Positions 4,228-59,415 of a DNA stretch of 64,000 bases are shown here, piece by piece. The DNA is from Streptomyces zinciresistens K42 (GTDB lineage: Bacteria > Actinomycetota > Actinomycetes > Streptomycetales > Streptomycetaceae). The stretch spans positions 1 to 64,000 of the forward strand of contig NZ_AGBF01000020.1 in the NCBI RefSeq assembly GCF_000225525.1, given 5' to 3'. The position numbers and the translations under genes were made by a program. The notes under the pieces are model-generated. The model saw nothing but the letters and a program-made list of their open reading frames with translations. It searched no databases and had not been told where the DNA came from. Every line of letters starts with the position of its first letter. The stretch's first letter is position 1.

Positions 4228-4309
4228 CGTCACTCCGGCCGCGCACGCGGACAACCTCTTCGACAGCGCTCACCCGAACGACGGCCGGGCCGCGTGGCCG
4301 TGCGCGACC

Positions 4310-38456: not shown

Positions 38457-38556
38457 ACCCGGGCCCGCCCCGCCGTCGCCCGGACCGTCGGCGGGCGGGA
38501 ACTCGCCGTCCCCCGCGTCCGACTCCTGTGACAGAAAGTGCTTCAGGAGGCCGGTG

Positions 38557-38787
38557 ATGAAACAACCCCAGCAGTCCGCTCCCGGGGCGGGTGCGGCGGT
38601 GCGCAGGCTCGCGCCGCCACCCGCCCTCTGCGGGTTCCTGCTGCTGCTCGTACTCGTCTTCACGGCGTCGTACGCCGTCGGAGCCACCGCCGGGCCCGTC
38701 GCGCCCGGCATGTACGGCACGGGAGCCGACGACGGCGGCGGGCTCGACAAGAGCAAGATGCGGATGCGGCACGGGGGCGGCGGCTGA
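38557..38787 (+). CDS. Small membrane protein leading the copper operon
   Basis: A 76-residue protein with AGGAGG 6 nt before its ATG. A Pro/Ala-rich cytosolic start, one membrane helix (CGFLLLLVLVFTASYAVG) and an outer tail with several Met and His residues (MYGTGADDGGG and KSKMRMRHGGGG). Its TGA overlaps the copA ATG by one base (TGATG), so translation is coupled. Position and the Met/His tail suggest a copper accessory protein; no named family recognised. Confidence 0.75.
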   Translation: MKQPQQSAPGAGAAVRRLAPPPALCGFLLLLVLVFTASYAVGATAGPVAPGMYGTGADDGGGLDKSKMRMRHGGGG

Positions 38788-41072
38788 TGGCGACCGAACC
38801 GGCACCCCTGATGACCGTCACCGACGTGAGCGTCGGCGGCATGACCTGCGCCGCCTGTGTGCGGCGGGTGGAGAAGAAGCTCGCCAGGCTGGAAGGCGTG
38901 AGCGCGACCGTCAACCTCGCCACCGGGCAGGCCAGGGTGAGCCATCCGCCCCGGATCAGCCCCGAGGACCTGGTGGCGGCCGTCGAGCAGGCCGGGTACA
39001 CCGCCGCGCTGCCCGAGCCCCCCGCGGCGTCCCCGCCCGCGGACGAGGAGGCGGCCGAGGACGCCCGCCCGGACCGCACCCGACTGCTCGTGACCGCGCT
39101 GCTGGCGACCCCGGTGCTGCTCCTGTCGATGGTGCCCGCCTGGCAGTTCCGCAACTGGCAGTGGCTGTGCTTCGTCCTCGCGACGCCCGTCGCCGTGTGG
39201 AGTGCCTGGCCCTTCCACACCCGGGCGCTGCGCGGGCTGCGGCACTCCACGGCCACGATGGACACGCTGGTGTCGCTCGGCGTGATCGCGTCCTTCGCCT
39301 GGTCGACCTACGCCCTGTTCCTCGGCGGGGCGGGCACGCCCGGCATGACCATGCCGTTCAGCCTGCTCCCCTCGGCGTCGGACGGCGTCGCCCACGTGTA
39401 TCTCGAAGCGGCCGTCGGCGTACCGCTGTTCGTGCTGGCCGGGCGCTTCCTGGAGGCCCGCGCACGCCACGGCACCGGAGCGGCGCTGCGCTCGCTGGCC
39501 CGGCTCGCCGCGAAGGAGGTGGCCGTACGCGACGACGACGGCACCGAACGCCTGGTGCCGATCGAGGAGTTGACCGTCGGGCGGACCTTCGCCGTGCGCC
39601 CCGGCGAGCGCGTCGCGACCGACGGCCAGGTGGTGGAGGGCAATTCAGCCGTCGATCTGTCACTGGTCACCGGCGAGAGCGAACCGATCGAGGTCGGCCC
39701 CGGCTCCGCGGTGGTCGGCGGAGCCGTCAACGAGGGCGGACTCCTGCTCGTCCGCGCCACCGCCGTGGGCGCCGACACCCAACTCGCCCGCATCACACAG
39801 CTGGTGACGGAGGCTCAGGCGGGCAAGGCGCGTGCGCAGCGGCTCGCGGACTCCGTTGCCGGGGTGTTCGTCCCCGTCGTGCTGGCCCTGGCCGTCACGG
39901 TGCTCGGCTTCTGGCTCGGGGCCGGCGCCGACCCCCAGGCGGCGATCACCGCGTGCGTCGCCGTGCTGGTCGTGGCCTGCCCGTGCGCCCTGGGCCTGGC
40001 CACGCCGACGGCGCTGATGGCCGCCACCGGACGCGGTGCCCAACTCGGTGTCCTGGTGCGCGGCCCGCAGGCCCTCGAAGGGCTCCACCACATCGACACC
40101 GTCGTGCTGGACAAGACCGGCACCCTCACCACCGGGCACATGAGCGTCGCCCGGGTCACCGCCGTGCCCGGCGGCCCCGGCAAGGACGCCGTGCTGCGTC
40201 TGGCCGGTGCCGTGGAACAGGGCTCGGAGCACCCGCTCGGCCGCGCGATCACCGCCCACGCCCGCAGGGTCCTCGCGGAGCAGGGGCCGCTGCCCGAGGT
40301 GCGGGACTTCCACGCCGAGCCGGGCCGGGGCGTGCGCGGGCGGGTCGAGGGCCGGCTGGTCGAAGTCCTCGCGCCCGACGAGGAGTTGCCCGCGGCCCTG
40401 GCGGACGCCCTGCCGGTCGCGGAGGCCGCCGCGCGCACGCCGGTCCTCGTGCGCGTCGACGGCGAGGCGCAGGCGCTGATCGAGGTCGGGGACGTGGTGC
40501 GGCCCGGCAGCTACCGGGCCGTGGAGCGGCTGCGCCGGCTCGGAGTGCACCCCGTGCTCGCCACCGGCGACCGCGAGGCACCGGCCCGCGCCGTCGCCGA
40601 CGCGCTCGGCATCGAGGAGGTGCACGCGCGCCGCACCCCCGAGGACAAGGCGCGCCTCGTCGAGGAGTTGCGCGAGCGGGGGCGCCGGGTCGCGGTCGTC
40701 GGGGACGGCGTCAACGACGCGGCGGCGCTCGCCGGTGCCGACCTCGGCATCGCCATGGGCACCGGCACGGACGTCGCCATCGGTGCCGCGGACGTGACCC
40801 TGGTCCGCGGCGACATCGAGGCCCTCGTGGACGCCGTACGGCTCGCCCGGCGCAGCCTGGGCACCATTCGCGCCAATCTGTGGTGGGCCTTCGGCTACAA
40901 CGCCGTCACCGTCCCGCTCGCCATGGTCGGACTGCTCAATCCGATGGTCGCCGCCGTGGCCATGTCGGTCAGCTCGCTGCTCGTCGTGGGCAACAGCCTG
41001 CGGCTGCGGGCCTGGCAGCCCCGCCCCGCCCGCGCCCGCCGCCGGCCCGCAGTCCCGGGAGGACTCCGATGA
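38787..41072 (+). CDS. copA: Copper-translocating P1B-type ATPase
   Basis: 761 residues. One N-terminal metal-binding domain with GGMTCAACVRR (Cys 21 and 24), eight expected membrane helices, the phosphatase TGES motif, the transport CPC motif (ACPCALGLATP, about 397), phosphorylation site DKTGTLT (about 441), HP motif SEHPLGRA and hinge GDGVNDAAALAGADLGIAMG. The CPC plus late YN (GYNAVTVPLA) and MxxSS (MSVSSL) motifs fit Cu(I) specificity. Family members export Cu(I) or load it into secreted enzymes. Stop overlaps the PCuAC start (ATGA). Confidence 0.95.
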   Translation: MATEPAPLMTVTDVSVGGMTCAACVRRVEKKLARLEGVSATVNLATGQARVSHPPRISPEDLVAAVEQAGYTAALPEPPAASPPADEEAAEDARPDRTRLLVTALLATPVLLLSMVPAWQFRNWQWLCFVLATPVAVWSAWPFHTRALRGLRHSTATMDTLVSLGVIASFAWSTYALFLGGAGTPGMTMPFSLLPSASDGVAHVYLEAAVGVPLFVLAGRFLEARARHGTGAALRSLARLAAKEVAVRDDDGTERLVPIEELTVGRTFAVRPGERVATDGQVVEGNSAVDLSLVTGESEPIEVGPGSAVVGGAVNEGGLLLVRATAVGADTQLARITQLVTEAQAGKARAQRLADSVAGVFVPVVLALAVTVLGFWLGAGADPQAAITACVAVLVVACPCALGLATPTALMAATGRGAQLGVLVRGPQALEGLHHIDTVVLDKTGTLTTGHMSVARVTAVPGGPGKDAVLRLAGAVEQGSEHPLGRAITAHARRVLAEQGPLPEVRDFHAEPGRGVRGRVEGRLVEVLAPDEELPAALADALPVAEAAARTPVLVRVDGEAQALIEVGDVVRPGSYRAVERLRRLGVHPVLATGDREAPARAVADALGIEEVHARRTPEDKARLVEELRERGRRVAVVGDGVNDAAALAGADLGIAMGTGTDVAIGAADVTLVRGDIEALVDAVRLARRSLGTIRANLWWAFGYNAVTVPLAMVGLLNPMVAAVAMSVSSLLVVGNSLRLRAWQPRPARARRRPAVPGGLR

Positions 41073-41611
41073 CCCCCGCCTCCGACGCCCCTGCCCCCGA
41101 CGGCCGTTCCTGGCGTTTCAGCCGGCGCCGGGCCGCCGAGGGCTTCCGGGCCGCGCTCGCGCCGATCGCCGCGTGCAGTGTCGCCCTGGGCGGCCTGACC
41201 ACCTGGGTGAGCACGGGCAACGCCGGCAGCCCCGCCCGTATCGAGGTCGGCGACGGACGCGTCCTGCTGCCGTACGGGGACGTCCGCGACACCGCCGCGT
41301 TCTTCCGGATCACCAATTCGGGCGGGGCCGAGGACCGGCTCCTGAAGGTGACCTCGCCCGCCGTGGCGGGCGGCACCGTGCTCAGCCGCCACCGGATGAT
41401 CAACAAGACGGCCGCCGCCTCGGGGGCGGTGGACTCGGCACCGATCCCGGCCCGGACCGTGGTCGCCATGTCCCCGTTCGGGCTCGATGTGACGATGCGC
41501 GCGGGGCGGGGCTGGGAGGAGGGCACCTACGTGCCGTTCACGCTGTACTTCGAGCGTTCCGGGCGGATCGAGGTGCAGGCACGGGTCGTCCGTCCCGGCA
41601 CCGGCGCGTGA
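41069..41611 (+). CDS. PCuAC-type periplasmic/extracytoplasmic copper chaperone
   Basis: A 180-residue protein with an N-terminal membrane anchor or signal (ALAPIAACSVALGGLTTWV) after a basic stretch. The DUF461/PCuAC fold is seen in DTAAFFRITNSGGAEDRLLKVTSPAVAG, VLSRHRMINKTAAA and MSPFGLDVTM, then the closing EEGTYVPFTLYFERSGRIEVQARV. Such proteins carry Cu(I) to cytochrome oxidase assembly; the His/Met ligand set here is only partly canonical. The ATG overlaps the copA stop, and GGGAGG lies about 8 nt upstream. Confidence 0.85.
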   Translation: MTPASDAPAPDGRSWRFSRRRAAEGFRAALAPIAACSVALGGLTTWVSTGNAGSPARIEVGDGRVLLPYGDVRDTAAFFRITNSGGAEDRLLKVTSPAVAGGTVLSRHRMINKTAAASGAVDSAPIPARTVVAMSPFGLDVTMRAGRGWEEGTYVPFTLYFERSGRIEVQARVVRPGTGA

Positions 41612-41766
41612 CACGCGCGGTCCCACAGGAAGTCGGACGGGCGGCACGCGTGGTTCCCTGACGTCGATGTGTCCTGTATCACTCTTCTGGGCTTGAGTAG
41701 GGGACGGGGGTGTCGCGCGTACCCCTCCATGACGAGCAGGCCCAGGATGCGAGGATGAGGGCCGTC

Positions 41767-42507
41767 ATGACAGTTGGGTGGAGTGTGCGCGCGATACGGG
41801 CCGCGGTGTTCGCGTCCGTCTGCGTCGTGCTGGCCGCGCTCGGCCACGTCCTGATGTCCGGCGCCGGCGTCCCGTGGTGGTCGCTCGCGGTCGGCCTCCT
41901 CGCCACCGGCGGGGCCGGCTGGTGCCTGGCGGGCCGGGAGCGCGGACTGCTCCTCATCGTCTCCGTCGTCGTCGCCGCCCAGGGCGGGCTGCACGGGGTC
42001 TTCGAACTCGCGCAGCCCTCGGGGAACTCCGGACAGGACATGGGCGCCATGCCCGGCGGCGCCGACCCCATGGGCATGAGCTCCATGGGTGGTGCCCACA
42101 TGGGTGCTGGCACCATGGCCTCCGGCACCATGGGCTCCGGCACCATGGGCTCCGGCACCATGGGTGCGGGAACCATGGGGTCGGACCCCACAGGCTCGGG
42201 CGCCATGGGTGGCATGAGCCACGACATGGCCGGCATGTCGTCGTTCGGCATGTTGGCCGCACACACCCTCGCGGCGCTGCTGTGCGGCCTGTGGCTGGCC
42301 CACGGCGAACGGGCCGCGTTCCGCATCCTGCGGGCCGTGGCGGGCTGGCTGGCCGCACCGCTGAACCTCCCCCTGGCCCCGCCCGCGCCGGCGCACCCCC
42401 CGCGGCCCGTGCCGCGCCGCGCCCGCTCCGAACGGGCGCCGCGGCTGCTGCCGCTCGTCCACACGATCACCTCAAGGGGACCCCCGGCCGGGACCGCTGT
42501 CGTCTGA
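41767..42507 (+). CDS. Met-rich membrane protein, probable copper-associated protein
   Basis: A 246-residue membrane protein: three hydrophobic helices, a loop with about 17 Met residues (MGAMPGGADPMGMSSMGG, then repeated SGTMG units, then MSHDMAGMSSFGM), another helix (LAAHTLAALLCGLWLAHGE) and a Pro/Arg-rich cytosolic tail. Met motifs of the MxxM and HDMxGM kind bind Cu(I), and the gene lies 155 nt after the PCuAC gene on the same strand. A role in copper uptake or storage is inferred. AGGG lies 5 nt before the ATG at 41767; 41755 is an alternative. Confidence 0.8.
   Translation: MTVGWSVRAIRAAVFASVCVVLAALGHVLMSGAGVPWWSLAVGLLATGGAGWCLAGRERGLLLIVSVVVAAQGGLHGVFELAQPSGNSGQDMGAMPGGADPMGMSSMGGAHMGAGTMASGTMGSGTMGSGTMGAGTMGSDPTGSGAMGGMSHDMAGMSSFGMLAAHTLAALLCGLWLAHGERAAFRILRAVAGWLAAPLNLPLAPPAPAHPPRPVPRRARSERAPRLLPLVHTITSRGPPAGTAVV
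42121..42180. repeat. 15-bp tandem repeats coding Ser-Gly-Thr-Met-Gly
   Basis: Three near-identical units of TCCGGCACCATGGGC (42121-42165) plus a diverged fourth (42166-42180) within the Met-rich gene. Copy number could change by slippage and alter the number of Met ligands. Confidence 0.85.
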
Positions 42508-42722
42508 GACAGCCGGTATCCCGAGGCACCACGGCACGCCTGTCGATCCGTCGACGCGGGCCCGCCCCGGGTCCGCGGCCGCACCTGCCGTGCGGCCGTG
42601 TCCCGCACCCCGGAACCCCTCCGGTGGCCGCGGCACCCACGCCCGCACCCGCCCCTCACCGGGCGGCCCTGCCGCCGTACCCGCCGCCGCACCGGAGTCC
42701 GGTCTACCCGAGAAGGACTCAG

Positions 42723-43415
42723 GTGATCACTCCTGCCCCGCCCTCCCCGCACGCGAGCCGCGTGCGGCACGCCACGGGGGACGGCACTTCCCCGGCGGCC
42801 CGGTGCGACGAGTCGACGACCGCGTGGGCGCTGGCCGCACGCGGCGGCGACCCCGAGGCCGCCGACCGCTTCGTCCGCTCGCTGCACCGCGACGTCGTCC
42901 GGTACGTCGCGCACCTCTCCGCCGACCCGCAGGCCGCCGACGACCTCGCCCAGGACACCTTCCTGCGCGCGCTCGGCAGCCTGCACCGGTTCGAGGGCCG
43001 CTCCTCGGCGCGCGCGTGGCTGCTGTCCATCGCGCGCCGCGCGGTGATCGACAGCCACCGCTACGCCGCGGCCCGGCCGCGGCTGTGCGACACCGACGAC
43101 TGGACGCTCGTGGCGGAACGCGCCCAGCCGGCCGGCCTGCCCGGCTTCGACGACGGCGTCGCCCTGCTCGACCTGCTGGACGCGCTGCCCGCCGAGCGCC
43201 GTGAGGCGTTCGTGCTGACGCAGCTGGCCGGGCTGCCGTACGCGGAGGCGGCCGCCCTGTGCGACTGCCCCGTGGGGACGGTCCGCTCCCGGGTGGCCCG
43301 CGCCCGCGCGGCTCTCGTCGAGCTGCTCGCGGCGGCCGAGGCGGGCGCGGACACGGTGGCCGTGACCGTGCCGGAGCCGCTCGCCGTCCCCGAGCCGGTC
43401 CCCGTCGCGGCGTGA
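42723..43415 (+). CDS. ECF-type RNA polymerase sigma factor
   Basis: 230 residues. Region 2: ADRFVRSLHRDVVRYVAHL, ADDLAQDTFLRALGSLHRFEGRSSARAWLLSIARRAVID (about 55-110). Region 4: LLDALPAERREAFVLTQLAGLPYAEAAALCDCPVGTVRSRVARARAAL (about 150-195). Region 3 is absent, as expected for group IV. GTG at 42723 with AAGGA 5 nt upstream. No anti-sigma gene follows directly; the preceding Met-rich membrane protein is not a typical anti-sigma. It sits 114 nt before the importer/isonitrile operon and probably controls it or the copper genes, inferred from position. Confidence 0.92.
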   Translation: MITPAPPSPHASRVRHATGDGTSPAARCDESTTAWALAARGGDPEAADRFVRSLHRDVVRYVAHLSADPQAADDLAQDTFLRALGSLHRFEGRSSARAWLLSIARRAVIDSHRYAAARPRLCDTDDWTLVAERAQPAGLPGFDDGVALLDLLDALPAERREAFVLTQLAGLPYAEAAALCDCPVGTVRSRVARARAALVELLAAAEAGADTVAVTVPEPLAVPEPVPVAA

Positions 43416-43422
43416 GCCGTGG

Positions 43423-43460
43423 CCCGGTGTCGGTCACCACCTCCGGGAACTGACACCGGG
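43423..43460 (+). terminator. Hairpin after the sigma-factor gene
   Basis: CCCGGTGTC (43423-43431) pairs with GACACCGGG (43452-43460), a 9-bp perfect stem with a 20-nt loop, starting 8 nt after the sigma stop. It probably separates the sigma gene from the operon starting at 43530, whose promoter would then lie in 43461-43529. Confidence 0.55.
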
Positions 43461-43529
43461 TCCGCCCCGACTACTGGACCGGGCGGCGCTGATCCGCCCC
43501 GCGCATCCAGTGGATCCAGGGGAGTTGCA

Positions 43530-44603
43530 ATGCGTTCTCGTATGGGGCGGGCCACGGCCGCCGTGACGCTCGGCGGCCTGTTGGCGGCGGGCTGCGGCGG
43601 CGGGGGCGACGGCGGTACGTCCGGTGCCGCGGCCGCCGGCAAGGACGGCGCGGCGGGCTACCCGGTCACCGTCACCGACTGCAAGGGCGCCCGCACCACC
43701 TTCACCTCGGCCCCGAAGAACATCGTCACCAGCAACGCCTCCAGCCTCGAACTGCTGCTGCGGCTCGGCGCCGACGACCTGGTGATGGGCACCGGGTTCC
43801 CGCCCGGCAAGGGCGCCTTCCCGGGCGGACTCGACGCACGCGCCCAGCGCGTGAAGGTGCTCGGCAAGGCCGTCATCCCCAAGGAGAAGCTCCTCGGCTC
43901 CGGCGCCGACCTGTACATCGACAGCTTCGCCTCCATGAACATGGCGGGCATGGGGGAGTCGCCGTCCGAGGCGGAGTTCAAGGCCGCGGGCATCAAGCAC
44001 ACCTTCCTGAAGTCCACCGCCTGCGCCGCGGCGAAGAAGCAGCCCCTGACCGACCTGTCCGCCGTCCAGGACGACGTCACCACCCTCGGCGCGATCACCG
44101 GCAGGCGCGCGAAGGCCGAGGAACTCGTCACCGCGATGCGCACCAAGGTGGACGCGGTGCGCAAGGCGGTCGGCGCCACCCCCGAGGCCGAGCGGCCCAC
44201 GTACTTCTTCTTCGACTACGACGCCGGCACCAAGCAGCCCATCGCCTTCTGCAACCGCCAGATCGCCAACGCGGTCATCACCCTCGCGGGCGCACGCAAC
44301 GTCTTCGCCGACTGCGACGGCGACTACCGGCCGGTCGGCTGGGAGGACGTGATCGCGAAGAACCCGGACTGGATCCAGCTCGGCGTGCGCAACCGGGGCG
44401 ACAAGGCCGCCAACGACAAGGCGTTCGACGAGGCGCGGCGGTGGCTGGAGACCAACGCCGCCACCAAGGGCCTCAAGGCCGTCAAGGAAGGCCGATTCCT
44501 GCGCATCGGCTCCGAGCGGACCACCATCGGCGGGGTCTCCAACGCCGACACCGTCGAGGAGATCGCGAAGACGCTGTACCCGGGCAGGATCGGCCGGCCG
44601 TGA
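43530..44603 (+). CDS. FecB/BtuF-type substrate-binding lipoprotein of a metallophore importer
   Basis: A 357-residue lipoprotein with lipobox LAAGC (Cys 22). The periplasmic-binding-protein type 2 fold is seen in APKNIVTSNASSLELLLRLGADDLVMG, LGSGADLYIDSF, YFFFDYDAGTKQP and WEDVIAKNPDWIQLG. Unusual are a Met cluster (SMNMAGMGES, about 135) and four Cys in the mature part besides the lipid Cys (in TDCKGA, STACAA, FCNRQ, FADCDG). First gene of a six-gene operon with an isonitrile synthase; ligand is likely the metal complex of the product. GGGAG about 6 nt before the ATG. Confidence 0.88.
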   Translation: MRSRMGRATAAVTLGGLLAAGCGGGGDGGTSGAAAAGKDGAAGYPVTVTDCKGARTTFTSAPKNIVTSNASSLELLLRLGADDLVMGTGFPPGKGAFPGGLDARAQRVKVLGKAVIPKEKLLGSGADLYIDSFASMNMAGMGESPSEAEFKAAGIKHTFLKSTACAAAKKQPLTDLSAVQDDVTTLGAITGRRAKAEELVTAMRTKVDAVRKAVGATPEAERPTYFFFDYDAGTKQPIAFCNRQIANAVITLAGARNVFADCDGDYRPVGWEDVIAKNPDWIQLGVRNRGDKAANDKAFDEARRWLETNAATKGLKAVKEGRFLRIGSERTTIGGVSNADTVEEIAKTLYPGRIGRP

Positions 44604-45694
44604 CCGACACCCTGCCGGCCCGCGAGGACACCCGCGGCCGTGAGGGCGACGCCCCGGGGCCGCGCACGCGGTCCGTGCCCGCCGGGCCGCTCGCGCTGGC
44701 CCTCGCCGCGGCCCTGCTCGCCGCCCTCACGGTCGCCGTGTCCCGGGGCTCCACCGCCATCCCGGCCGGGGAGGTGTGGGGCGTGGTGCTGCGCCGCCTG
44801 TCCGGCGAGGCGCCCCGCCCCGGCACCGACGACCTGATCGTCTGGCAACTGCGTCTCCCGCGCGCCCTGCTGGCCGCCCTCGTCGGCGCCGGGCTCGGCC
44901 TGTGCGGCACCGCCATGCAGGCCCTGGTGCGCAACCCGCTCGCCGACCCCTACTTCCTCGGCATCTCCAACGGCGCCTCGCTCGGCGCGGTCGCCGCGAT
45001 CGTCCTCGGCCTCGGCACCGGCGGCGCCCTCGGACTCGGGCTCTCCGGCGCCGCGTTCGCGGGGGCCCTCGCCACCTTCGCGCTGGTGTGGACCGTGGCC
45101 CGGCGCCGCGAGGGCTTCGCGCCCCTGCGGCTGGTGCTCGCCGGCGTGGCCATCGGACAGTTCCTGTCCGGCTTCACCAGCTACCTCGTGCTCCAGGCCG
45201 GAGACGAGCAGCAGACCCGCAGCGTGCTCTTCTGGCTCATGGGCAGCCTGAGCGGCGCCAGTTGGCCGCTGCTCGCCGCGCCCGCCGTCGCCGTGCCCGG
45301 CGCGCTGCTGTGGCTGCTGGCCCGCGCCCGCGGCCTCAACGCGCTCACCATGGGCGACGAGACGGCGGCCGGACTGGGCGTGGACGCGAGCCGCCTGCGC
45401 CGGGAACTCTTCACCCTCACCAGCCTGTTGACCGGCGTCCTCGTCGCCGTCTCCGGCGCGATCGCGTTCGTCGCGCTCATGGTGCCGCACGCCTGCCGGC
45501 TGGTCGTCGGCGGCGACCACCGCCGACTGCTGCCCCTGTCCGCCCTGTTCGGGGCGCTCCTGCTGGTCGTCGTCGACATCGCCTGCCGTACGGCCATGGA
45601 CACCCAGGAGCTGCCCGTCGGCGTCGTCACCTCGCTGATCGGGGCACCGGCCCTGCTGTATCTGCTGGACCGGCGCCCGGGGAGCGTGCGATGA
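44600..45694 (+). CDS. FecCD-type ABC importer permease
   Basis: A 364-residue type II importer permease with about ten membrane helices. Family marks: LRLPRALLAALVGAGLGLCGTAMQALVRNPLADPYFLGISNGAS, LALVLAGVAIGQFLS-like core, SVLFWLMGSLSGASW, LNALTMGDETAAGLG (coupling helix) and SGAIAFVALMVPHACRLVVGGDHRRLLP. GTG start overlaps the binding-protein stop by 4 nt (GTGA), so translation is coupled. Works as a dimer with the ATPase encoded next. Confidence 0.93.
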   Translation: MTDTLPAREDTRGREGDAPGPRTRSVPAGPLALALAAALLAALTVAVSRGSTAIPAGEVWGVVLRRLSGEAPRPGTDDLIVWQLRLPRALLAALVGAGLGLCGTAMQALVRNPLADPYFLGISNGASLGAVAAIVLGLGTGGALGLGLSGAAFAGALATFALVWTVARRREGFAPLRLVLAGVAIGQFLSGFTSYLVLQAGDEQQTRSVLFWLMGSLSGASWPLLAAPAVAVPGALLWLLARARGLNALTMGDETAAGLGVDASRLRRELFTLTSLLTGVLVAVSGAIAFVALMVPHACRLVVGGDHRRLLPLSALFGALLLVVVDIACRTAMDTQELPVGVVTSLIGAPALLYLLDRRPGSVR

Positions 45695-46509
45695 GGATCG
45701 ACATCGAGGACCTGCACGTCGCCTACGCCGGCCGTACGGTCGTCGCGGGCGCCCGGCTGATCGCGGCCGACGGCGAGATCACGGGACTCGTCGGCCCCAA
45801 CGGCAGCGGCAAGTCCACCCTGCTGCGCACCGTCTACCGCCACCTCACACCGCACGCCGGACGGGTCCTGCTGTCCGGCACCGACCTGCGCCGGCTGGCA
45901 CCCGCCCAGGCGGCCCGGCACGTCGCCGCGCTGCCCCAGGAGCGGGGCGGCGACTTCGAACTCAGCGTCCACGAGGTCGTCGCCATGGGCCGTACGCCCT
46001 ACAAGCGGGCCTTCGCCGGGGAGGACGCCACCGACCGGGAGATCGTCGCCCGCGCCCTCGCCGACGTCGGCATGACCCACCACACCGGGCGCCGCTTCAG
46101 CGAACTGTCCGGCGGCGAACGCCAACGCGTCCTGCTGGCCCGCGCCTTCGCCCAGCAGCCCGACGTCCTCGTCCTGGACGAACCCACCAACCACCTCGAC
46201 ATCCGCCACCAGGTCGAACTGCTCGCCCTGCTGCGCGCAGCCCGCCGTACCACCCTCGTGTCGCTGCACGACCTCAACGCCGCCGCCTCCGTGTGCGACC
46301 GGCTGCACGTCCTGCACGACGGCCGGGTGATCGCCTCCGGACCACCCCGCCAGGTGCTGCGCCCCGACCTGCTGGCCGAGGTGTTCGGCGTCCGGGCGAC
46401 CGTCGTGGACCACCCCCTCACCGGCGATCCGCTGATCGCCTTCGACCACCGGCGCCCCGCCGGCGGACCGGTCCCGGAGCCCGGCCCCCGCGACCACGTC
46501 CCCACCTGA
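45691..46509 (+). CDS. FecE-type ABC importer ATPase
   Basis: 272 residues. Walker A GPNGSGKSTLL (about 35-45), Q-loop ALPQERGGDF, signature LSGGERQRVLLARA, Walker B VLVLDEPTNHLDIRH, H-loop VSLHDLNAAA, all canonical. ATGA overlap with the permease gene. 18 nt separate it from the asparagine-synthetase-like gene, so import and biosynthesis share one transcript. Pro-rich C-terminal tail is dispensable in appearance. Confidence 0.94.
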   Translation: MRIDIEDLHVAYAGRTVVAGARLIAADGEITGLVGPNGSGKSTLLRTVYRHLTPHAGRVLLSGTDLRRLAPAQAARHVAALPQERGGDFELSVHEVVAMGRTPYKRAFAGEDATDREIVARALADVGMTHHTGRRFSELSGGERQRVLLARAFAQQPDVLVLDEPTNHLDIRHQVELLALLRAARRTTLVSLHDLNAAASVCDRLHVLHDGRVIASGPPRQVLRPDLLAEVFGVRATVVDHPLTGDPLIAFDHRRPAGGPVPEPGPRDHVPT

Positions 46510-46527
46510 ACGACCCAGGAGCCTTCC

Positions 46528-48354
46528 ATGTGCGGAATCACCGGCTGGGTGTCCTTCCACAGCGACGCCCGCACCCGGACCCCGGCCATCGAGGCCATGA
46601 CCGCGAGCCTCGCCCCGCGCGGACCGGACGCGGGCGGTGTCTGGCTCGGGGAGCACGCGGCGATCGGCCACCGCCGGCTCGCCGTCCTCGACCCCGAGGG
46701 CGGCACGCAGCCGATGACCGACCGGCCGCACGCGCCGACCGCCGTGCTCACCTACAGCGGCGAGATCTACAACCACCACGAACTGCGGGCCCGGCTGCGC
46801 GCCCTCGGGCACCGCTTCGAGACCCGCAGCGACACCGAGGTCGTGCTGCGCGCCCACGCCGAGTGGGGCGAGGACGCCGCCGAGCACCTGGAGGGCATGT
46901 TCGCCTTCGCCGTCTGGGACGAGCGCGCCCAGCGGCTGCTCCTCGTCCGCGACCGGCTCGGCGTCAAACCCCTGTTCTGGGCGGCCGTCGACGGCGGACT
47001 CGCCTTCGCCTCCGAGCCCAAGGCCCTCTTCGCCCACCCCGAGATACGGCCCCGGGTCGACGCGGACGGCCTGCGCGAGGCGTACAGCCTGCTGTTCAAC
47101 ACCGGGCCGACGATCTGGTCCGGAGTGCGGGAGGTGGAGCCGGGCGCCGTGCTCGTCCTGGACCGCGGCGGCATCCGCGAACGGCGCTACTGGCAGTTGG
47201 AGGCGGGACGCCACCGCGACGACCGGGACGCCACCGTGGACCGCGTCGGCGCGCTCGTCGGCTCCGCCGCCCGCGGACAGCTGGAGGCCGACGTCCCCCT
47301 GTGCGCCCTGCTGTCCGGCGGCATCGACTCCAGCGTCCTGGTCGCCCTGCTCGCCGACGAACTCCGGCTGCGCGAGGGCCCGGACGCCCGGCTGCGCACC
47401 TACGCCGTCGACTACAGCGACCAGGCCGAGCACTTCACCGGCGACGTCCTGCGCACCGGCCACGACACCCCGTACGCCGCCGAGGCCGGCGCGTTCGTCG
47501 GCACCGACCACAGCACGGTCGTCCTCGACCCCCTCGCGCTGCTCGACCCGGAGCACCGCAGGGCCGTCGTCGCCGCCCGCGACTCGCCCATCGGCGTGGG
47601 CGACATGGACACCTCGCTGTACCTGCTGTTCGGGCGGATCAGGGAGCACTCCGCCGTCGCCCTGTCCGGCGAGGCGGCCGACGAGGTCTTCGGCGGCTAC
47701 CCCTGGTTCCACGACCCCGAGGCCCTGGGCGCCGACACCTTCCCCTGGCTGCTGGTCACCGGCGACGAGGCCGCCATGCCGCTGCACCCCGAACTCGACC
47801 TGCACATCGGGGAGTTCCGCGCCGACACCTACCGCAGCGCGCTCGCGGCCGTGCCCCACCTCGACGACGAGAGCCCCGGCGAGCACCGCGGGCGCGAGAT
47901 GCAGCACCTGTCGCTGACCCGCTGGCTGCGCCAACTGCTGCACCGCAAGGACCGGTTGAGCATGGCGCACGGTCTGGAGGTCCGCGTCCCGTACTGCGAC
48001 CACCGGCTCGTCGAGTACGCCTTCGACGCGCCCTGGGCGCTGAAGAGCTTCGACGGCCGCGAGAAGAGCCTGCTGCGCGCCGCCGGAACCGGGCTCGTGC
48101 CCGAGTCGGTGCTGCACCGCCCGAAGAACCACTACCCGGCCACCCACCACCCCGACTACAACCGCGGCCTGCAGAACCTCGCCCGCGACGCCCTGGCCGT
48201 CGAGCAGGTCCGCGCGCTGGCGGACGAGACCCGCCTCAAGCCCTGCCTCGACACCCCGCCCGAGCAGCTTCGCTGGGGGCACCGCCTGCGCCTCGAACGC
48301 GTCGTCGACCTCGCCCTGTGGCTCGACCACCACAAGCCCGAACTCGCCCTCTGA
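46528..48354 (+). CDS. Asparagine synthetase (glutamine-hydrolysing)-like amidotransferase
   Basis: A 608-residue AsnB-family enzyme. N-terminal class II glutaminase with nucleophile Cys2 (MCGITGW), RGPD, LTYSGEIYN and SDTEVVL; C-terminal synthetase with PP-loop LLSGGIDSSVL (about 262) and LSGEAADEVFGGYPWF. Both active sites look intact. Standard activity is Gln- and ATP-dependent amidation of Asp, but in biosynthetic clusters homologues amidate other carboxylates or close lactams. Being 15 nt upstream of a P450 and in one operon with an isonitrile synthase, it probably converts a carboxylate of the pathway intermediate to an amide (inference). Confidence 0.92.
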   Translation: MCGITGWVSFHSDARTRTPAIEAMTASLAPRGPDAGGVWLGEHAAIGHRRLAVLDPEGGTQPMTDRPHAPTAVLTYSGEIYNHHELRARLRALGHRFETRSDTEVVLRAHAEWGEDAAEHLEGMFAFAVWDERAQRLLLVRDRLGVKPLFWAAVDGGLAFASEPKALFAHPEIRPRVDADGLREAYSLLFNTGPTIWSGVREVEPGAVLVLDRGGIRERRYWQLEAGRHRDDRDATVDRVGALVGSAARGQLEADVPLCALLSGGIDSSVLVALLADELRLREGPDARLRTYAVDYSDQAEHFTGDVLRTGHDTPYAAEAGAFVGTDHSTVVLDPLALLDPEHRRAVVAARDSPIGVGDMDTSLYLLFGRIREHSAVALSGEAADEVFGGYPWFHDPEALGADTFPWLLVTGDEAAMPLHPELDLHIGEFRADTYRSALAAVPHLDDESPGEHRGREMQHLSLTRWLRQLLHRKDRLSMAHGLEVRVPYCDHRLVEYAFDAPWALKSFDGREKSLLRAAGTGLVPESVLHRPKNHYPATHHPDYNRGLQNLARDALAVEQVRALADETRLKPCLDTPPEQLRWGHRLRLERVVDLALWLDHHKPELAL

Positions 48355-48369
48355 GGAGCGCCACCGCCC

Positions 48370-49614
48370 ATGACCGCGCAGGAACCGCAGCCGCTCACCG
48401 ACCCGGTGCCGCTGATGGGCTGCCCCTACAAGGCCGACCCCTATCCGCTGTACGAGCGGATGCGCGACGCGGGTCCCGTCCACCGCGTCCTCTTCCCGAG
48501 CGGGGTCCGCGCCTGGCTCGTGACCGGCTACGACGCCGCCCACGCCGCCCTCAACGACGACCGGCTCGGCAAGAACCACGACCGGGGCAACGACCGCTGG
48601 CGCGCCCGCGCCTCGATCATGCCCGAGCCCCAGCACTCCCAGCTCCAGGTGCATCTGCTCCACCAGGACCCGCCCCGGCACACCCGGATGCGCGGCCAGG
48701 TCACGGACGCCTTCGCGCCGCGCCGCGTCGACGCGCTGCTGCCCCGCTTCCAGGTCCTCGCGGACCGGCTGGTCGACGCGCTGCCGGACACCGGGCCCGC
48801 CGACCTCGTCGCCGGGTTCGCCGCGCACTTCCCCTTCCAGGTCCTCGCCGAAGTCATCGGCCTGCCGCCCGAGTTGTCCGCCCGCTTCGACCGCGACTGG
48901 GGCAAGGTCGTCCAGCCGGTCGGACCGGCGGACCCCGGGCGGGCCCGCTACGAGGCGCGGCTGCACGGACTCCAGAGCTACATCGCCGACGTCGTCGCCC
49001 ACAAGCGGCGCCAGGGGGACGTGGACCTCCTCGGCCGGCTCACGGCGGCCTGCGACCAGGGCGAACTGACGCCCGAGGAACGGGACTCCATGATCTTCCA
49101 GTTGCTGGTGGCGGGCCAGGAACCGGTCACCAACCAGATCACGACCGCCCTCGTCGCCCTCTTCCGCAACCCCCGCCAGCTCGCCCGGCTGCGCGAGGAC
49201 CCCGCCCTGCTGCCCCGGGCGGTCGAGGAACTCCTGCGCCACGACAGCGCCTTCGAGCTGACGACCTGGCGCTTCTTCGACCGGGACAGCGACCTGCACG
49301 GCACGCCCGTACCGGCAGGCGACTCCGTGATCGTCTCCCTGTGCGCGGCCAACCGCGACCCGCGCCGCTTCCCCGACCCCGACACCCTCGACCTCGACCG
49401 CAGCCCCAACCCCCATCTCGCCTTCGGCCACGGCATCCACTTCTGCCCCGGCGCCGCCCTCGCCCGAGCCGAACTGCGCATCGCCCTCGGCACGTTGCTC
49501 ACGCGCCTGCCCGGCCTGCGTCTCGCGGTCGGGGACGACGACCTCGCGTGGATCCCCGCCGTCCTCGGCCGCGGCACCCGCGAACTCCCCGTCGCCTACG
49601 ACCGCCGCCGCTGA
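48370..49614 (+). CDS. Cytochrome P450 with atypical oxygen-activation motif
   Basis: A 414-residue soluble bacterial P450. Heme ligand loop FGHGIHFCPGAALAR (Cys about 358), K-helix EELLR (about 286) and the C-helix HTRMRGQVTDAF are normal. The I-helix reads LLVAGQEPVTNQ (about 247), so the usual AG-x-(D/E)-Thr has Pro in place of the conserved Thr. Loss of this Thr is known in some P450s that do phenol or aryl coupling (CYP158A2 is one example). It lies between the amidotransferase and the isonitrile synthase and probably tailors or dimerises the isonitrile product (inference). Confidence 0.92.
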   Translation: MTAQEPQPLTDPVPLMGCPYKADPYPLYERMRDAGPVHRVLFPSGVRAWLVTGYDAAHAALNDDRLGKNHDRGNDRWRARASIMPEPQHSQLQVHLLHQDPPRHTRMRGQVTDAFAPRRVDALLPRFQVLADRLVDALPDTGPADLVAGFAAHFPFQVLAEVIGLPPELSARFDRDWGKVVQPVGPADPGRARYEARLHGLQSYIADVVAHKRRQGDVDLLGRLTAACDQGELTPEERDSMIFQLLVAGQEPVTNQITTALVALFRNPRQLARLREDPALLPRAVEELLRHDSAFELTTWRFFDRDSDLHGTPVPAGDSVIVSLCAANRDPRRFPDPDTLDLDRSPNPHLAFGHGIHFCPGAALARAELRIALGTLLTRLPGLRLAVGDDDLAWIPAVLGRGTRELPVAYDRRR

Positions 49615-49704
49615 CTGCCCGCCCCGCCCCCACCCCGAGCCACGCGGCGCCCGCGCCCGGCGCACAGCCGCGGCGCCCCGCCGCCATGCCCGTACGGAGC
49701 CCCC

Positions 49705-50640
49705 ATGCCGCCGACGACCGCATCCGACACCCGTGCCACGAGCCGTACCAGCGCCGCCGTCCTGGACATCCTGCTGCCCCACCACCGCACCACCGACCGC
49801 ACCCCCGGCGCACCCGGGGCGTTCGGCCACCAACTGCACGGCATCGACGCGTTCGTGCGGGCGGGTGAGCCCGTGGTGTTCACCCTGCCCGGGTTCCCCT
49901 GCAAGTCGCCCAACCCCGCGAAGGTCCTCGGGCACCTGCCGGACCAGGGCGAACGCCTCTCCCTGCGCTTCCTCGACACCCTGTGCGCGGACATCCGGCG
50001 CGTCCACCCGCCCGGCGCCCGGGTCGTCATCTGCTCCGACGGCCATGTCTTCGGCGACCTGATCCGCGTCCCCGACGAGCACATCGACGCCTACGCCGAC
50101 GAACTGCGCGTACTCATAGGACGGTCGGGGGCGCGGCACCTGTCCGTCTTCGACCTGCGCGACGTCCTCGGCGACCTCCCGCACGACGCCAAACGCGCCC
50201 ATGTCCACGACCGCCACGCCCCCGCCCTGGACGCCCTGCGCGCGGAGGTCCGCGACGACGCCGCCACCCTCGCCCTGTACCGGGGCATCACCCGCTTCCT
50301 GGTCGAGGACACCGCGGACTTCACCGGCACCCGCTCCGCGCTCCAACGCGCGTGCCGCAGCCGCGCGTACGGTGTCATCCAGCGCAGCCGGGCCTGGGGC
50401 GCGCTCATCGCCGAGCAGCACCCCGGCGCCGTACGCCTGTCGATCCACCCCCAGCCGGCCGGCGCCCCCAAGTTCGGCATCCGGCTCCTGGACGGCCCCG
50501 ACGCCTGGACCACGCCCTGGCACTCGGCCGCCCTGCGCGAGCCCGACGGCGGCTGGACCCTCATGCCCCGGGCACGGGCCGAACAGCTCGGCCGCCTCGT
50601 CACGCGCGACGGCAGACCGAGCCACTTCGAGCGCTGCTGA
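49705..50640 (+). CDS. Isonitrile (isocyanide) synthase, DIT1/PvcA/IsnA family
   Basis: 311 residues. Diagnostic blocks of the family: VFTLPGFPCKSPNPAKVLG (about 58-75), GARVVICSDGHVFGDLIRVPDEHIDAYADEL (read as ICSDGHVFGDL and VPDEHIDAY), FLVEDTADF, AVRLSIHPQPAGAPKFGIRL and TPWHSAAL. Characterised members (PvcA, IsnA, XanB domain) replace the alpha-amino group of Tyr or Trp by an isonitrile using a carbon from ribulose 5-phosphate. No PvcB-type Fe/2-oxoglutarate oxygenase is adjacent, so the carboxylate may be kept. Last gene of the operon; its stop abuts the convergent BtuF-like gene. Amino-acid substrate not resolved. Confidence 0.9.
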   Translation: MPPTTASDTRATSRTSAAVLDILLPHHRTTDRTPGAPGAFGHQLHGIDAFVRAGEPVVFTLPGFPCKSPNPAKVLGHLPDQGERLSLRFLDTLCADIRRVHPPGARVVICSDGHVFGDLIRVPDEHIDAYADELRVLIGRSGARHLSVFDLRDVLGDLPHDAKRAHVHDRHAPALDALRAEVRDDAATLALYRGITRFLVEDTADFTGTRSALQRACRSRAYGVIQRSRAWGALIAEQHPGAVRLSIHPQPAGAPKFGIRLLDGPDAWTTPWHSAALREPDGGWTLMPRARAEQLGRLVTRDGRPSHFERC

Positions 50641-51663
50641 TCAGCGCCCGCCGGCCACCGTGCGCACATAGGCGCCGAGGCGGGCGACGGCCGACGCGTT
50701 GCGCGGGCTCTCGACCAGGTCGGCGTAGTCGAGCACGAAGATCCGCTTGTTCCTGACCGCGGACACCTTGCGCAGCGCCGGATAGGACAGCAGGAACGCC
50801 CGCTTCTGCCCGGCGCTCACGTCGCCGTAGTCGACGATCACGATGATCTCCGGATCGCGCTCGACGACGCTCTCCCAACCCACCGCAGTCCAGGAGTCCT
50901 TGAGGTCGCGCATGATGTTCACGCCGCCCGCCGCGCTGATGATCTGCTCGGGGGCGGCGTAGCGGCCCGAGGTGAGCGGCTGCTCCTGCCCGCTGTCGTA
51001 GAGGAACACCCTCGGCCGGTCCGCGCCCCGGGGCGCCTTCGCCACTACGGCGGCGATCCGCTCCCTGAACCCGGCGACCAGCGCGGCGGCCCGCTCCTGG
51101 ACGCCGAACAGCTTCCCGAGGTTGGTGAGATCGGTGTAGAGCGCCTCCAGCGGCGGCATGATGCCGCGGGCGTCGCCCGCCCGGCCGTTGCGGCAGGACT
51201 CGGTGAGGACGTACGACGCGATGCCGAGCTTCTTCAGCGCCTCGGGTGTGAAGCCGCCCTCCTCCCGGAAGCCGTAGTTCCAGCCGGCGAAGACCATGTC
51301 GGCGCGGGCGTCGAGGACGTTCTCCCTCGTCAGCTGGCCCTTCGACAGCCACTTCACCTTGTCGTAGCCGGCCTTCCACGGCACGTTGCGCAGATCGCCC
51401 TTGTCCTCGGGCATCGCGAACCCGGCCATGCGGTCCTCCAGACCGAGGGCGAACATCAGCTCGGTGATGCCGACGTCGTTGGTGACCACGCGCTCGGGGA
51501 CCTTGTCGAAGGTGACCTTCCGGCCGCAGTTGGTGAGGGTCACCGCGGCGTTCTTCGCGGCGGCCGTGGACGAGGCCCCGGCGGGCGGCTCGACCTCGGC
51601 GCCGCAGCCGGAGAGGGCGAGAACCGAGGCGAGGCACAGGGCGGTGACGCGGAACGTGCGCAT
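50641..51663 (-). CDS. BtuF/FecB-type substrate-binding lipoprotein (probable cobalamin uptake)
   Basis: A 340-residue lipoprotein with lipobox LALSGC (Cys 20). Fold marks are VPERVVTNDVGITELMFALGLEDRMAGF, ARADMVFAGWNYGFREEGG, VFLYDSGQEQPLTSG and WESVVERDPEIIVIVDYG. Third gene of a permease-ATPase-binding protein operon (53539 down to 50641) that begins behind a cobalamin riboswitch; this makes B12 or a cobamide the likely cargo. Distant homologue of the binding protein at 43530, whose ligand may differ. Its stop codon directly touches that of the isonitrile synthase gene. Confidence 0.85.
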   Translation of the reverse strand: MRTFRVTALCLASVLALSGCGAEVEPPAGASSTAAAKNAAVTLTNCGRKVTFDKVPERVVTNDVGITELMFALGLEDRMAGFAMPEDKGDLRNVPWKAGYDKVKWLSKGQLTRENVLDARADMVFAGWNYGFREEGGFTPEALKKLGIASYVLTESCRNGRAGDARGIMPPLEALYTDLTNLGKLFGVQERAAALVAGFRERIAAVVAKAPRGADRPRVFLYDSGQEQPLTSGRYAAPEQIISAAGGVNIMRDLKDSWTAVGWESVVERDPEIIVIVDYGDVSAGQKRAFLLSYPALRKVSAVRNKRIFVLDYADLVESPRNASAVARLGAYVRTVAGGR

Positions 51664-51674
51664 GGACGGGGTCC

Positions 51675-52445
51675 TTACGTGGGCGGGAGCAGATCGAACA
51701 GCAGCTGGACGGCGCCCGTCTCCGGGTGCCGCACGGGATGCGCGCGCACCCCGAACACCTCGGCCAGCAGCGCCGGTCGCAGGACGTCGTGCGGGGCGCC
51801 GCCGGCCACCACCCGCCCGTCGGCGACGACGTACAGCACATCGCAGTGCGCGGCGGCCAGATTCAGGTCGTGCAGGGCGGCCAGCACGGTCAGGCCGCTG
51901 GAGCGCACCAGGGACAGCACGTCCAACTGGTGCGCGATGTCGAGGTGGTTGGTGGGCTCGTCCAGGACGAGCACCCGCGGCTGCTGGGCGAGCGCCCGTG
52001 CGATGAGCACGCGCTGCCTCTCCCCGCCGGACAGCGTCAGGAACCCGCGGTCCGCCAGGTGCGCGACGCCCGTGCGGTCCATGGCCGCCGCGCAGATCTC
52101 CCGGTCGGCCGCCGCCGAGCGTTCCCGGTGCGGCAGCCGCCCCATCGCCACCACCTCACCGACGGTGAAGTCGAACTCGGCCGACGACTCCTGCGGCAGC
52201 GCCGCCAGCACCCGGGCCGTCGCCCGCGGCGTCATCGTTCGTACGTCCTCGCCGTCCAGCCGTACCACGCCGCCGTCCGGCCGCAGCGCCCGGTACACGC
52301 ACCGCAGCAGGGTGGACTTGCCGCTGCCGTTCGGCCCGACCAGGCCGACGAACGCCCCGCTGTCCACGGCGAGCCGCATGCCGTCGACCAGCCGTGCCCC
52401 GGCCGCCTCCACCGTCACGCCCTCGATGTCCAGCCGCACGGTCAC
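51675..52445 (-). CDS. BtuD/FecE-type ABC importer ATPase
   Basis: 256 residues. Walker A GPNGSGKSTLL, ALPQESSAEFDF Q-loop, signature LSGGERQRVLIARA, Walker B VLVLDEPTNHLDIAH and H-loop AALHDLNLAAA are all intact. ATG overlaps the permease stop (ATGA), and the binding-protein gene follows after 11 nt. Works with the FecCD-like permease as a dimer; presumably cobalamin import under riboswitch control. Confidence 0.93.
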   Translation of the reverse strand: MTVRLDIEGVTVEAAGARLVDGMRLAVDSGAFVGLVGPNGSGKSTLLRCVYRALRPDGGVVRLDGEDVRTMTPRATARVLAALPQESSAEFDFTVGEVVAMGRLPHRERSAAADREICAAAMDRTGVAHLADRGFLTLSGGERQRVLIARALAQQPRVLVLDEPTNHLDIAHQLDVLSLVRSSGLTVLAALHDLNLAAAHCDVLYVVADGRVVAGGAPHDVLRPALLAEVFGVRAHPVRHPETGAVQLLFDLLPPT

Positions 52446-53539
52446 CGCCCCCCGAACGCGTAGCCGCCGCGCCGCATCAGCAGCAGGAAGGCGGGCACCC
52501 CCACCACCGCGGTGATCACCCCGACGGGCAGTTCGACGGGCGCGAGCACGAGCCGGGACAGCAGGTCAGCCCACACCAGCAGCACGGCCCCGGCGAGCGG
52601 CGCCACCGCCAGCACCCGGCGGTGATCGGCCCCCACCAGCATCCGCGCGACATGAGGCACCATCAGCCCGACGAACCCGATCGCCCCGCTGACCGCCACC
52701 ACCGTCCCGGTCACCGCGGCCGTCACCAGGAACAGCTCCCGCCGCAGCACCGACGGCCGGACCCCCAGCGCGGCCGACGTCTCGTCGCCCATCGCGAGCG
52801 CGTTGAGCGCCTCGGACCGGCGGCGCAGCCACCCCCACCCGGCCAGCACGGCCGCCCCGGCCAGCGGCACCTGCGCCCACGTCGCGCCCCCGAGGCTGCC
52901 CAGCAGCCACATCATCGCCGTGCGCGCCGCCTCGCCCCGGGACGCGCCGAACACCATCACGGTGGTGAGCGCCTGGAAGCCGTACGCCAGTGCCGTCCCC
53001 GTCAGGATCAGCCGCAGCGGGGTCAGCCCGTGCGGCGAGCGGGCCATCGCGTACACCAGCGCCGTCGCCGCGAGCGCCGACGCGAAGGCGGACAGGGACA
53101 GCGCCCACACCCCGAGTCCCGCGAACACCCCCAGCAGGATCACCGCGTTGGCGCCGACCGCGGCGCCGGAGGAGATGCCGAGCACGAACGGATCGGCGAG
53201 CGCGTTGCGCACCATCGCCTGCACGGCCACCCCGACGGCCGCCAGTCCCGCGCCGGCCACGGCGCCCAGCACGGCGCGCGGCAGCCGGATCTCCCAGACG
53301 ATCGTGTAGGCCGCCACGTCGCGGGCTTCGATGCTCCCGCCGGTCAGGCCCGCCCACAGCAGCCGCAGGACCTCGCCCCAGCCGATCCCGGCGGCGCCCA
53401 GCCCCACACCGCAGACCAGCGACACCAGCAGCAGCAGTCCGAGGCCGACGGCGAGCGGTCCGACCGGCAGGCGCGCCGACCCCGGGCGCGCGGTCGGTGT
53501 CCGTGGCGGGCTTCGGTGCACGGGCGGGCGGTCCTTCAC
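52442..53539 (-). CDS. BtuC/FecCD-type ABC importer permease
   Basis: A 365-residue permease with about ten membrane helices: IRLPRAVLGAVAGAGLAAVGVAVQAMVRNALADPFVLGISSGAAVG, MMWLLGSLGGATW, LNALAMGDETSAALG and SGAIGFVGLMVPHVARMLVGADHRR. First gene of the minus-strand importer operon. Start taken as GTG at 53539, with a poor ribosome site, which suits a leader whose riboswitch controls ribosome access. Upstream leader of about 220 nt contains the cobalamin riboswitch. Confidence 0.92.
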   Translation of the reverse strand: MKDRPPVHRSPPRTPTARPGSARLPVGPLAVGLGLLLLVSLVCGVGLGAAGIGWGEVLRLLWAGLTGGSIEARDVAAYTIVWEIRLPRAVLGAVAGAGLAAVGVAVQAMVRNALADPFVLGISSGAAVGANAVILLGVFAGLGVWALSLSAFASALAATALVYAMARSPHGLTPLRLILTGTALAYGFQALTTVMVFGASRGEAARTAMMWLLGSLGGATWAQVPLAGAAVLAGWGWLRRRSEALNALAMGDETSAALGVRPSVLRRELFLVTAAVTGTVVAVSGAIGFVGLMVPHVARMLVGADHRRVLAVAPLAGAVLLVWADLLSRLVLAPVELPVGVITAVVGVPAFLLLMRRGGYAFGGR

Positions 53540-53639: not shown

Positions 53640-53760
53640 CACCACGGGCGATCGGGCTCACGCGACGGACCGGACGGGCCGCGCGCACACCGTTGCGGGT
53701 CAGCGCCGGACTCTCACCGGACTTCCCCCGCGGGAGGCTCCGGGAGCGTAGCAAACGCAG
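53640..53760 (-). ncRNA. Cobalamin riboswitch
   Basis: Read on the minus strand the leader has the universally conserved cobalamin aptamer core. GGTGAGAGTCCGGCG (53718-53704) runs into GCGCTGACCCGCAACGGT (53706-53689), followed after a hairpin by the B12-box-like GAGCCCGATCGCCC (about 53659-53646). The 5' side (TGCTACGCTCCCGGAG) supplies the closing helix. It lies about 100 nt upstream of the importer permease, so adenosyl- or other cobalamin should repress that operon. The exact 5' and 3' limits are approximate. Confidence 0.92.
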
Positions 53761-59192: not shown

Positions 59193-59215
59193 GGGCGACG
59201 TACTCCTTCCGTACT

Positions 59216-59415
59216 CCGCCTACCGGGTTAGCTGACGGGTTCGGGCGGACAGGCGGTCCGGAAGGTGTGCCCTACGGCCGTTGCCCCGCGGGGCAGTTGG
59301 CCGATTCACCCCAAGTTCGGTGGGTCCCCGGCTCCCGTGGGCCCGTGCGGGCACACCGGACTCGGCGGAGGCCGCGCGTCCCGGCGGGGTTCGCCGGAGG
59401 TGATCGTGCGGTCTG
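59216..59415 (-). ncRNA. ydaO/yuaA-type (cyclic di-AMP) riboswitch
   Basis: On the minus strand the leader carries the conserved core of this class. GGGGTGAATCGGCC (59312-59299) is followed by a GC hairpin, GTAGGGC and CCTTCCGG, then CCCGAACCCG and AACCCGTCAGCTAACCCGG (59241-59223), then TAGGCGG closing the outer helix about 24 nt before the ATG. This arrangement ahead of cell-wall hydrolase genes is well known in Streptomyces. The 5' limit is approximate. Confidence 0.88.

Follow-up and report, generated by a model that had tools for sequence, protein, structure and literature searches.

The 64,000-nucleotide window analysed here (Streptomyces zinciresistens K42, assembly GCF_000225525.1 of 8.2 Mb, contig NZ_AGBF01000020.1, positions 1-64,000 of the forward strand) contains, at 38557-50637 on the + strand, a run of genes arranged as metHis-copA-PCuAC-like, MetTM-ECF sigma, and SBP-FecCD-ABC-AsnB-P450-PvcA, where ECF stands for an extracytoplasmic function sigma factor, MetTM for a Met-rich membrane protein, SBP for a substrate-binding protein and ABC for an ATP-binding cassette ATPase. 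This locus is probably, with a chance of about four in five, a copper-acquisition system built on a hazimycin-type isonitrile chalkophore and placed under a SigC-like switch. An earlier annotation made from the letters alone (hereafter the sequence-only reading) had noted a small Met/His protein, CopA, PCuAC and a Met-rich membrane protein on the same strand ahead of an ECF sigma factor and an isonitrile operon; these genes were confirmed, all on the + strand, and the isonitrile operon was found to extend past the 38557-43415 of that reading, to 50637. Its suggestion that the isonitrile is a copper ligand finds support, at the level of sequence, in gene linkage, in the exchange of one isonitrile pathway for another beside the same copper genes, in a shared promoter-like motif and in the SigC-like ECF.

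Among 295 Streptomyces genomes, PvcA is present in 58, a PCuAC-like gene in 98 and both in 48 (odds ratio 18, Fisher p 2.7e-18, with genomes treated as independent), while 10 PvcA genomes lack a PCuAC-like gene. Of the 50 full-length PvcA copies that reach 60% identity, 36 have a PCuAC gene no more than 15 kb away (21/31 at 69% or above, 15/19 at 60-68%), and of the 17 below 60% none does; 11 of the 78 PvcA rows were left out of this distance count as short pieces. The copper genes and PvcA remain neighbours in at least three different arrangements: both on one strand with the copper genes either upstream (L062) or downstream (L064-L066), or the copper genes in opposed orientation to P450-PvcA (most of L082-L099). 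From the named genomes 80 of 275 relatives were kept for a scan, some of them strains already among the other genomes; within about 10 kb of PvcA it found a P450 in 78 loci, SBP in 75, ABC in 75, FecCD in 73, AsnB in 59, ECF in 58, MetTM in 56, PCuAC in 29 and CopA in 23; these figures and the gene-order counts are lower bounds, because copper genes may lie outside the fetched flanks. Kitasatospora loci with the set of isonitrile synthase, amide-forming enzyme, P450 and transport genes were also found. The sequence-only reading had cautioned that the linkage could be chance; with 48 of the 58 PvcA genomes carrying both genes, with the 15-kb linkage and with its persistence through changes of gene order, the association is far above chance, and chance linkage was rejected.

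A second isonitrile pathway occurs beside the same module. Forty regions were fetched around PCuAC genes, 36 of them from genomes without a PvcA match, and seven of the 40 contain a homologue of ScoE, accompanied by FcoT, an AMP ligase and carrier proteins, which is a cluster of the isonitrile-lipopeptide type. Genus-wide, 14 of the 17 ScoE copies that reach 70% identity have a PCuAC gene no more than 15 kb away, none of the 12 below 70% does, and all 17 genomes with a close ScoE carry a PCuAC-like gene. No ScoE match was found in the 120 PvcA loci searched, and five PCuAC genomes hold both PvcA and ScoE somewhere. Because PvcA and close ScoE are both linked to PCuAC, two unrelated isonitrile-making routes appear to share one copper module.

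Both operons of the window are preceded by the motif GGGAACT-N16-CGACT, at 38497-38524 (+ strand) ahead of metHis-copA-PCuAC and at 43445-43472 (+ strand) ahead of the uptake and isonitrile genes. The motif was first spotted by eye upstream of both operons and then searched; the two exact copies in the window (38497, 43445) compare with 0.06 expected in shuffles, for a motif chosen after looking. A copy with one mismatch lies at 41631-41658 on the - strand, between PCuAC and MetTM and directly 5' of the latter, and this opposite-strand site recurs in a number of relatives' loci. In 80 other loci plus the window, the relaxed form GGGAAC-N16..18-CGAC is found 179 times, and each of two control patterns 13 times. 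Its N17 form has 163 sites, of which 81 precede a gene for SBP (26), P450 (18), a major facilitator superfamily (MFS) transporter (15), or metHis or CopA (22), and 29 precede no called gene. The motif also stands ahead of the ScoE gene run in all seven loci drawn. The strict motif was counted genome-wide in the first 150 of the 295 genomes with the reversed motif as control, giving 315 versus 202 in 106 ECF-positive genomes (p 8e-7) and 55 versus 74, with no excess, in 44 ECF-negative ones; given the control count, most genome-wide matches are still chance. The K42 genome has eight sites, and downstream genes were examined for the two in the window. That the motif ties the copper and isonitrile operons to the SigC-like ECF is thereby supported, as far as sequence comparison goes.

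In five further loci (L103, L108, L110, L127, L128) the copper module occurs with neither PvcA nor ScoE nearby, and the motif precedes genes for an acyl-CoA dehydrogenase, for a CoA-transferase and AMP-binding enzyme, and for a ZnuA/ABC-3 type transporter; these genes possibly form another copper ligand pathway.

The best solved matches of the ECF (42723-43412, + strand; start uncertain, with 42762 as an alternative) are structures of Mycobacterium tuberculosis SigC, 2o7g ranking first and 2o8x third. SigC is placed in ECF36 in the accessible text of PMC8999054, and according to that of PMC7924339 it acts in copper acquisition and guards against copper starvation, ctpB and the isonitrile ppe1-nrp operon being transcribed by it. 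A SigC above the curated cut-off is carried by ten genomes of a single genus, presumably Mycobacterium because PPE and mycobacterial membrane families occur. Eight of these 10 loci have the motif next to sigC, pointing to a PPE-like gene in four and to a copper-ATPase-like gene in four (one of each confirmed by Pfam, and all four ATPases by alignment). In one of these genomes a gene some 10 kb away from sigC is also preceded by the motif; it encodes a ScoE-type oxygenase, and among its close relatives of solved structure are a (3R)-3-[(carboxymethyl)amino]fatty acid oxygenase/decarboxylase and ScoE. The PPE genes of L231-L234 are not claimed as the ppe1-nrp operon; that of L231 adjoins a gene for a mycobacterial membrane protein.

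MetTM (41755-42504, + strand) is the near-constant partner of this ECF. Counted over the window and the first 80 loci, it lies just upstream of 56 of the 57 ECF copies, and six MetTM copies occur without an ECF; it has the same place in 53 of the 57 ECF-bearing named loci, two of the other four being cut by the locus end, and in all eight further Streptomyces loci. Outside the genus it is found in 4 of 32 SigC-like loci and in none of the ten presumed mycobacterial loci. By a simple pattern search, the same 32 non-Streptomyces loci have a zf-HC2-like sequence adjacent to the ECF in 11 cases (10 on the opposite strand) or in the same frame as the ECF in six, and 11 have neither MetTM nor a zf-HC2-like sequence. 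All of 48 MetTM homologues share Cys23, His31, His80, Met166 and His170, as well as a C-terminal RGPP. A structural model of modest quality (predicted local distance difference test score 66, predicted template modelling score 0.40) has four long helices with a Met-rich loop between the third and fourth. The window protein matches no Pfam family, no family is matched by more than one of the 48 homologues (best E 0.0065), and a fold search in the PDB gave one match of no use (E 9.8). MetTM is probably a copper-sensing regulator of the sigma factor. A more detailed proposal, put forward tentatively and rated somewhat short of even odds, is that MetTM is a new membrane copper sensor that holds the SigC-like factor inactive while copper is bound, that the Met/His-rich loop with Cys23, His31, His80, Met166 and His170 would be the copper site, that RGPP would act on sigma, and that one Actinomycetota SigC-type regulon would drive interchangeable PvcA and ScoE chalkophores together with a dedicated copper ATPase. 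Two other arrangements were seen beside SigC-type genes: in six presumed mycobacterial genomes (L230-L235) a zf-HC2-like sequence shares one open frame with the SigC orthologue, and in L257 a single open frame (2137-4524) with zf-HC2, CopC and CopD domains lies beside a SigC-like ECF, with the motif just upstream.

The isonitrile operon begins with SBP (Peripla_BP_2, 43530-44600), the FecCD-type permease (44600-45691) and the ABC ATPase (45691-46506), and continues with the asparagine-synthase-like amidotransferase AsnB (46528-48351, whose best solved relative is 7ylz, a hydroxyamidotransferase), the cytochrome P450 (48370-49611) and the PvcA/DIT1-family isonitrile synthase PvcA (49705-50637), all on the + strand and spaced tightly enough to suggest a single operon. 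An MFS-like gene, often preceded by the motif, stands between the ABC ATPase and AsnB in many relatives; in the window AsnB follows the ATPase after 18 bases. PvcA is a full-length match to the Pfam DIT1/PvcA family (252 versus a cut-off of 26 bits) and its profile matches the solved PvcA 3e59 (E 1.5e-96). Hazimycin is a bis-tyrosine-amide diisonitrile, and a hazimycin-type cluster combines an isonitrile synthase, an amidotransferase and a P450; these three are present together in the window, and PvcA, AsnB and P450 make up the gene set expected for a hazimycin-type product. The SMNMAGM cluster reported by the sequence-only reading in the first binding protein is indeed there, at SBP residues 135-141; its first Met is kept in all 105 homologous loci, some of which represent the same strain twice, and 98 of the 105 have a further Met two or three positions after it.

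Several neighbouring features were also recorded. An MFS transporter at 55663-57141 has counterparts of 89-95% identity near PvcA in ten named loci and is possibly the exporter of the compound. A second transporter (SBP-ABC-FecCD, 50644-53539, - strand) was set aside as a part of the system; it is on the opposite strand, behind a weak adenosylcobalamin (AdoCbl)-riboswitch-like match (53657-53736, - strand, 34 bits versus a cut-off of 50), and is found in 10 of the 80 named loci. A cyclic di-AMP riboswitch (59201-59377, - strand, Rfam RF00379, 65 versus 38 bits) precedes the gene of an NlpC/P60 protein at 57372-59192. Two records named Archangium, a myxobacterium (L181, L192), contain PvcA (74-75% identity) and P450 (82-84%) of the window type; in the 10 kb or so around PvcA, neither the transporter nor AsnB nor the copper genes gave a match. 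These copies reflect either horizontal transfer or contamination.

The copper operon opens with metHis (38557-38784), a small protein with apparently one membrane helix and a KMRMRH tail, homologues of which precede CopA in many module loci. CopA (38787-41069) is a P1B-type ATPase that falls among the P1B-1 copper ATPases, since it exceeds the cut-off for copper-translocating P-type ATPases (TIGR01511, 505 versus 397 bits) and carries CxxC, CPC, YN and MxxxS, which we take to be copper-ATPase motifs. The 11 module CopAs included in a 22-protein tree group together as a single clade (100/100), separate from seven other ATPases of the K42 genome and from the four sigC-linked ATPases of the presumed mycobacteria, suggesting a dedicated role for the module CopA. 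The start of the PCuAC-domain gene (41069-41608) overlaps the copA stop at 41069; all three genes are on the + strand. The protein matches PF04314 (57 versus 29 bits) and has no PDB match by sequence. Canonical PCuAC proteins have a His/Met pattern of copper ligands, which served as the yardstick for an alignment of 61 rows (the window's own protein twice): position 108 is His in 37 of 61 and Met134 is present in 61 of 61, and the place expected for the second His is occupied by Asp in 52 of 61. Of the sequence-only label 'PCuAC chaperone', the domain assignment therefore stands, and the usual copper ligands are not conserved.

Several observations weigh against the chalkophore interpretation as a whole. 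The absence of the usual His/Met ligands in the PCuAC-like protein is one, and on the enzyme side PvcA scores 270 bits against the TyIsonSynPvcA profile for L-tyrosine isonitrile synthases, whose curated cut-off is 600. The counts come from related, non-independent genomes, the identity limits for PvcA and ScoE were chosen after viewing the lists, and 14 of the 50 PvcA copies that reach 60% identity lack a PCuAC gene in the surrounding 15 kb, some on short contigs and some on complete chromosomes. The ECF reaches 165 bits with the curated NCBIfam SigC equivalog, below its cut-off of 219, which is why it is named SigC-like and not SigC; and ctpB showed no significant difference between the sigC mutant and its parent in copper-poor medium, according to the accessible text of PMC7924339. 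With two mismatches allowed, the window has 9 motif sites versus 5.4 expected, no excess over chance. A longer motif form is not enriched genome-wide in the ten presumed mycobacterial genomes (32 versus 28 control), so that the mycobacterial case rests on site position; nine loci among the 32 sites were read downstream, besides the sigC-adjacent ones.

The alternative that survives best, although unlikely, is that the isonitrile serves chiefly as an antibiotic or binds a different metal, and that the copper genes protect against copper mobilised by the compound or by competitors. CopA-type ATPases export copper, so part of the copper module could be protective. SBP and the permease resemble F420, B12 and siderophore-type transporters by score, in no case above cut-off, and isonitriles are antimicrobial according to the accessible text of PMC11290450. 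On the other hand, the SigC-like ECF points to copper starvation, the K42 genome has four other close CopA paralogues while the module CopA belongs to a separate clade, the binding protein has its Met cluster, and a protective role does not sit easily with a copper module common to two unrelated isonitrile pathways.

Other ECF factors use GGGAAC-type promoters, and it is conceivable that one of them reads the motif and that the SigC-like ECF beside it has other targets. Some 42 ECFs can be present in a single Streptomyces (accessible text of PMC7730460), and yet this explanation is improbable in view of the genome-wide motif excess, which is confined to ECF-positive genomes, and of the adjacency of the motif to the SigC orthologue in presumed mycobacteria. 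The notion of the copper genes as a stable core locus with the isonitrile operon beside it by chance is very improbable and is rejected as stated: the module does occur without an isonitrile cluster, with 50 of the 98 PCuAC genomes lacking PvcA and 38 lacking both PvcA and close ScoE, figures which also count against the chalkophore interpretation, but a PCuAC-like gene is found in only 98 of the 295 genomes, linkage outlasts changes of gene order, distant PvcA (0/17) and distant ScoE (0/12) are unlinked, and the motif is common to both operons. The conservation comparison that the sequence-only reading had proposed, of whether the CopA-PCuAC-isonitrile order holds across genomes, came out on balance in favour of its interpretation, close PvcA and close ScoE copies being mostly near PCuAC; the part that speaks against it is that about half of the PCuAC genomes are without PvcA.

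In the copper-acquisition system favoured here, copper shortage would lead the SigC-like ECF to turn on both operons through GGGAACT-N16-CGACT, with MetTM, encoded just upstream, probably sensing copper and controlling the sigma factor. PvcA would convert an amino acid, probably tyrosine, into an isonitrile, AsnB would probably convert the acid into an amide, and the P450 would probably join two such units. An exporter would release the product and SBP-FecCD-ABC would return its copper complex, after which the module CopA, the PCuAC-like protein and the small Met/His protein would handle the copper, probably loading exported or membrane cuproproteins.

The hazimycin cluster studied by Matsuda and colleagues reportedly contains an isonitrile synthase, an amide-forming enzyme, a P450 and import/export genes, and the window likewise combines an isonitrile synthase, an amide-forming enzyme, a P450 and transport genes. 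The title of their paper (Matsuda et al. 2024, J. Antibiot. 77:228, cited in PMC11085572) calls hazimycins actinobacterial chalkophores, so that the chalkophore reading is, probably, largely in print already for this cluster type. Isonitrile chalkophore chemistry is likewise that of the SF2768 and other isonitrile lipopeptide clusters and of the mycobacterial nrp operon; clusters of ScoE type were found beside the same copper module and motif as the window type, the difference being that SF2768-type isonitriles are formed by a ScoE-type oxygenase and that of the window by PvcA. In the M. tuberculosis SigC copper-starvation regulon, as is proposed for the window, genes for a copper P1B ATPase and for isonitrile formation are under a SigC-type ECF; the difference is that the window has MetTM encoded just upstream of the ECF and a module CopA of another clade than the sigC-linked ATPases of presumed mycobacteria. 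In fungal xanthocillin biosynthesis (XanB and the P450 XanG), a tyrosine isonitrile is formed and the P450 is proposed to dimerise it, in a copper-starvation response (accessible text of PMC5974471). The pairing of isonitrile synthase and P450 resembles that of PvcA and P450 in the window; by contrast, the regulators are fungal, the isonitrile step is a two-step IsnA-IsnB-like sequence, and AsnB, present in the window, is not mentioned in the accessible text of that source. In the literature surveyed, which leaves most subscription journals outside and was available in part, no paper on a SigC link or a copper-sensing partner in Streptomyces was found. As far as that survey reaches, two elements seem new: a single SigC-type regulon for two kinds of isonitrile chemistry, and a candidate copper sensor in the Met/His-rich membrane protein encoded upstream of the ECF.

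The near-constant pairing of a SigC-like factor with MetTM in soil bacteria, together with a candidate promoter motif and candidate targets, bears on how copper shortage is sensed through SigC. The motif and the copper module may also help to locate copper-ligand clusters with a different chemistry, one gene set without an assigned product among them.

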